Part shown: piece after piece, positions 16,287-17,521 of the stretch
How the letters are laid out: every line of letters starts with the position of its first letter
Position numbering within the stretch: position 1 is the stretch's first letter
Origin: a bacterium
GTDB taxonomy: Bacteria > Blakebacterota > Blakebacteria > Blakebacterales > Blakebacteraceae
Length of the DNA: 17,587 bases
Direction of reading: 5' to 3'
Assembly: GCA_025774615.1 (NCBI GenBank)
Contig: JALGVQ010000040.1
Location: 1 to 17,587, forward strand
Made by a program: the position numbers and the translations under genes
The notes under the pieces: generated by a model
What the model saw: only the letters and a program-made list of their open reading frames with translations
Told to the model about the DNA's origin: nothing
Database searches by the model: none

Positions 16287-17521
16287 CAACGATTCTGATA
16301 CTGATAGTAGTTCTGGGGATATTGATATTCGTCCACGAGCTCGGACATTTCGTGGTGGCGAAGGCGGTTGGAGTACGGGTCCTGAAATTCAGTCTCGGAT
16401 TCGGTCCGAGCATTTTCAGTTTCACCCGGGGTGAGACCGAGTATGCGGTCTGCTGGGTGCCGCTCGGCGGCTATGTGAAGATGGCCGGTGAAGATCCGGA
16501 GGACATCGCCGAGGCCGAGGCCGAGGGCAGGGAACCACAGCCGGGTGATTTCTCGTACGCGAGCGTTCCTCGTCGTCTCGGTATCATCCTGGCGGGACCG
16601 ATCATGAACGTCGTGCTCGCCCTGTTCGTCTACTTCCTGATCTTCTCCATCACCGGCATCACCGAGATCGCGACAACCGTGGTGAGTGACGTGAACCCCG
16701 AGAGCCTGGCGGCCGCTGCCGGGATCGAGCAGGGTGATGAGATCCGCTCGATCGACGGGGTTGCGGTGGATACCTGGGGCGATGCCATCGATCTGATCAC
16801 TGCCGGGATAGGCGTGATCCACGAAGTCGACATCCTCCGGGGCAGTGAAGAGATACGGGTCGAACTGCCGAGCCTGCTCGGTTCCGACGGGGGGCCGGTC
16901 GAAGGAGCGGAGACGGGGTATGGACTCTTCCCGCTCTACGGTTCCCGGATCGCTACGGTCGTGGATACAGGCGCCGCGGCCGCGGCCGGGCTCCAGCAGG
17001 GTGACCGTATCACGCGTATCGGGGACACACCGATTGAGAACTGGCTCGATCTGCGGGCGGCACTCCAGCCGATGGCAGGGGTCCCGGTAGACATCACGTA
17101 CGAACGTGACGAGGAGAGCACCACGATCCTCATCACTCCCGCCGGTCAGATGAACGAAGAGACAGGCGAGATCAGGGGTTTCCTCGGAGTCGGTCCCGAT
17201 CCGAGCGATCTTCCCCTCAATCATATCAGTCTGACCATAGTGCAGGCCGTCGGGGAAGCCGCTGCGGAGACGTGGGAGAAGGGCACCCTGATCGTCGACA
17301 TCCTCGCGAGACTGGTGACCGGTCAGATCTCGATGAAGAAATCACTCGGCGGGCCGGTGATGATCGCCTCTGTCGCCCGCGATTCTGCACGGGCGGGGCT
17401 AGCGATACGGGGGAAACCACTTTCACTGAAATTCCGACTCATCGCGACCCAGGTGGGCATGGCCTTCATCATCCTGATCATGCTCTATGTCACGGTGAAT
17501 GATTTTATGAGGCTCTTTTAG
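16283..17521 (+). CDS. rseP: RseP-family site-2 protease, lacking TM3 and the LDG catalytic motif
   Basis: RseP cleaves membrane-spanning substrates such as anti-sigma factors and remnant signal peptides. GTG 16283 is chosen because it overlaps the dxr stop (GTGA), has GGGAG (16270-16274) upstream, and puts HELGH (H18-H22) in the first membrane helix as usual. Next come the conserved GGYVKMAGE loop, TM2 with GPIMNVVLA, and two PDZ domains (about 135-215 and 225-300). The end is wrong: after [19 protein letters not shown] the sequence jumps directly to [11 protein letters not shown] and the last helix. Other RseP proteins have about 37 residues there, holding TM3 and NxxPxPxLDG with the zinc-binding Asp. 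The 412-residue length fits a loss of that size from a protein of about 450. The frame stays open, so this is an in-frame deletion or an assembly collapse near 17399-17405. As written it should be proteolytically inactive. Confidence 0.93.
   Translation: [412 protein letters not shown]

Follow-up and report, generated by a model that had tools for sequence, protein, structure and literature searches.

Loss of the LDG motif from an rseP gene at a contig end probably reflects a false join between strain variants in a metagenome-assembled genome

The HExxH and LDG motifs are common to all site-2 proteases, where each lies in a transmembrane segment of its own, and their mutation has been associated with reduced protease activity (PMC10202637). 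In RseP-type members of MEROPS family M50, such as those of Escherichia coli (structure 7w6x) and Aquifex aeolicus (aq_1964; structure 9j82), the zinc-binding HExxH motif lies in TM1, PDZ domains are located between TM2 and TM3, and an NxxPxPxLDG motif in TM3 provides the third zinc ligand. The window studied here, i.e., the whole 17,587-nt stretch of contig C315 from a metagenome-assembled genome, presents the gene order uppS-cdsA-dxr-rseP of such systems, with the rseP open frame (16283-17521, + strand) directly 3' of dxr and constituting the last gene. Like RseP of E. coli and A. aeolicus, its product displays a HELGH motif and two PDZ domains. Unlike them, the copy in the window is without 36 residues and the LDG motif; this is most likely an assembly fault, with no biological difference shown. 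For comparison, three related genomes were found: G001, of the same genus (72% identity), as well as G002 and G003, of the same family. Together with a second contig of the window's own genome (C123), these define the following features.

16283..17521, + strand: rseP, a site-2 protease of the M50 family with two PDZ domains and a 108-nt in-frame deletion (Pfam M50 and PDZ matches; tblastn against G001; protein alignment).
17400..17401, no strand: probable false join at which 108 nt (36 codons; TM3 and LDG motif) are missing (alignment with G001, G002, G003, and own contig C123).
17401..17587, + strand: contig tail duplicating C123:87-329 with three base differences, which reads as a variant-strain piece (alignment; DNA search of own genome).
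17510..17520, no strand: second deletion relative to C123, of 56 nt with terminator-like hairpins, at the rseP stop, with imperfect repeat GGCTCTTTTA/GGCTTTTTTA (alignment; folding).

An earlier note made from the sequence had described a skip of about 37 residues, from SARAGL to AIRGKPLS, in a protein with HELGH and both PDZ domains otherwise intact. Both observations hold: the zinc-binding motif reads FVHELGHF, Pfam detects two PDZ stretches, and alignment with G001, G002, and G003 sets the loss at exactly 36 residues (108 nt; edge uncertain by one residue either way), spanning TM3 and the NxxPxPxLDG motif. In keeping with this, the Pfam Peptidase_M50 match in the window protein reaches only position 159 of the 221-position profile, and tblastn against rseP of G001 returns 68% identity with a single gap of 36 residues. 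The junction falls in frame at 17400/17401, with an uncertainty of about one base, and displays no clear microhomology by which a simple collapse of k-mers could be explained. Hairpin formation was also considered as a cause of the deletion and rejected, since the G001 counterpart of the missing rseP stretch is no more stably folded than its shuffles (z = 0.52). Taken as assembled, the window protein would be expected to be inactive.

The missing motif is nonetheless present in the same genome. A Pfam search of the latter detected another M50 match, which occupies the first bases of C123 (C123:1-162, profile positions 167-220); this contig begins inside the missing stretch, encodes the LDG motif, and then continues into the C-terminus of the window's rseP (...MRLF). 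Of the 108 nt that were lost, C123 thus supplies about 84, and, by comparison with G001, about 24 nt are found on neither C315 nor C123. DNA 3' of rseP is also common to the two contigs (C123:258-329 corresponding to 17516-17587). Beyond it, positions 422-12751 of C123 align to positions 14308-26607 of G001 contig C270, where the gene order 3' of rseP is continued; therefore, C315 and C123 are neighbours in one locus. As to the second deletion, the C123 stretch with the extra 56 nt forms strong hairpins (z = -6.4) and, given these hairpins and the imperfect 10-nt repeat, slippage is a possible source, but it is the longer form that C123 carries. From these alignments, the end of C315 is an erroneous, variant version of the first part of C123, and by its three base differences the tail seems to derive from a distinct haplotype.

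The full segment with the LDG motif is found in all three related genomes (block equivalents being close in G002 and G003), and the full RseP of G001 matches both solved structures, 7w6x and 9j82, over nearly its whole length. A scan of genome contigs matched only the G001 locus (JALGWK010000079.1), to which dxr, cdsA, uppS, argS, panB, panC, and panD of the window align without gaps; between the window ends, most genes match G001 gap-free or with small gaps. Two side observations concern this interior. Tandem deoxynucleoside-kinase-like genes (233 and 213 aa) lie 3' of folK at 5181-6520; in G001, the first of them apparently lacks its initial two thirds. The nucleotidyltransferase frame at 8616-9407, which we take to resemble the N-terminal half of GlmU, displays an 18-residue gap relative to G001 in tblastn.

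Since the motif is encoded at this locus in the same bin and recurs in each of the near relatives compared, a normal RseP is most likely present in the organism. We thus read the rseP gap as an assembly artefact (probability of about 96%, judged from sequence comparison), i.e., a probable false join between strain variants of an ordinary rseP gene. Two pieces of the locus, probably from different strains of one metagenome, would have been joined end to end without intervening Ns, thereby dropping 108 nt. This join may have arisen while contigs were scaffolded or graph paths were joined by a de Bruijn assembler (k of about 115), for which IDBA-UD is a likely candidate. Counting against this reading are the three differences of the tail from C123, the lack of clear microhomology at the junction, and the roughly 24 nt present on neither contig. 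For such a deletion, the odds of remaining in frame are one in three. As its alternative reading, the earlier note had itself offered an assembly deletion, clean, in frame, and about 110 nt long, and it is this alternative that the comparisons favour, at a size of 108 nt.

The opposite end of the window and other contigs of the bin display comparable faults, listed below.

1..511, + strand: part of groEL; overlaps the terminal part of contig C189 (95% identity; contig comparison).
1100..1122, no strand: further deletion, near 1118, which disrupts the groEL frame (two Cpn60 matches; alignments with relatives).
L068 4043-4633 and L088 1-621 (contigs C5 and C304): in-frame loss in an ABC transporter after a 114-base overlap.

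The two Cpn60 matches, at 2-1117 and 1119-1343, lie in different frames. In all, three deletions in conserved or regulatory sequence thus lie no more than about 1.2 kb from one or other end of the window. In G001, groEL (on contig C48) also bears a deletion in this region, though not the same one, and the two bins seem to suffer the same kind of fault in this gene.

We also sampled 120 further contigs and ran an all-against-all comparison that included the window, C123, and C189 (123 in all; 8 read as N throughout). Eight contig pairs have exactly 114 identical end bases in common, as expected of de Bruijn assembly with k = 115, and several more ends overlap at roughly 94-99% identity, as expected of a strain mixture. 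Two further pairs combine such exact overlaps with missing sequence. Following their 114 common bases, C5 is without 30 nt relative to C304 and then continues as a variant of about 95% identity, such that its ABC transporter loses the ten residues VQQDVFLFSG in frame (MVGV running directly into TIGEN, vs MVGVVQQDVFLFSGTIGEN); the protein is intact in C304. Contigs C14 and C282 likewise have exactly 114 bases in common, followed by a gap of 186 nt net and a tail of 87% identity. The records are scaffolds, as indicated by two short N runs, one of which sits between two copies of the same 114 bases. On C200 and C283 (L138, L167), we also noted scattered repeats that measure roughly 60-210 nt and are 85-97% similar to one another. 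Given similar contig-end faults elsewhere in the bin, the rseP deletion does not stand alone but belongs with several events of this type. The locus thereby resembles the false joins and strain mosaics of metagenome-assembled genomes, with deletions near contig ends, divergent end overlaps, and exact overlaps of fixed length; it is unlike other cases in that the join happens to keep the frame and removes a catalytic motif. Guaymas Basin metagenome-assembled genomes, the Meg22 core included, were assembled by IDBA-UD (PMC9727166; PMC10290634), and from the 114-base overlaps we infer a similar pipeline for the window's own genome.

Were the deletion instead real, the window would represent a low-abundance strain variant in which the in-frame loss of 108 nt yields an inactive pseudo-protease that might bind substrates via its PDZ domains, much as the earlier note had proposed a substrate-binding decoy. 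The open rseP frame would suit such a variant, as would the tail beyond the junction, which with its three differences from C123 resembles a separate haplotype. However, the same contig carries a second deletion within 120 nt and a frameshifting one that leaves groEL broken too, and similar deletions occur at contig ends elsewhere in the bin. A pseudo-protease would call for catalytic loss that is shared by relatives or independently supported; here, the deletion occurs in none of the three relatives, G001, G002, and G003 all having the full motif as the earlier note had specified for evidence against its own proposal, and most of the missing DNA lies on C123 of the same bin. The earlier note had suggested seeking another site-2 protease in the genome; the three other M50 matches in the bin differ in layout and do not look like the RseP type, and consequently nothing points to a substitute with which the cell could tolerate losing RseP. 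We thus regard a real variant as very improbable. Still harder to credit is a duplication in which one organism bears both a full rseP (C123) and a degenerate one (the window), as the two C-terminal pieces in the bin might suggest, given that the pieces also have downstream DNA in common, that both lie at contig ends and jointly fit one locus syntenic with G001, and that a second N-terminal half of rseP was not found in the bin (82% complete).

Ultimately, the assembly artefact remains the preferred reading of the rseP gap, and the organism's RseP would, judging from its family, work like other RseP proteins in regulated intramembrane proteolysis. The value of the rseP case is solely cautionary. 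In assemblies of this type, strain variants can be joined with no gap in such a way that a conserved motif drops out in frame and unnoticed, and the outcome is a convincing but false pseudo-enzyme; the ABC transporter of C5 constitutes another such loss within this genome. When metagenome-assembled genomes are mined for catalytically dead enzymes, contig ends and overlapping contigs should thus be checked first.
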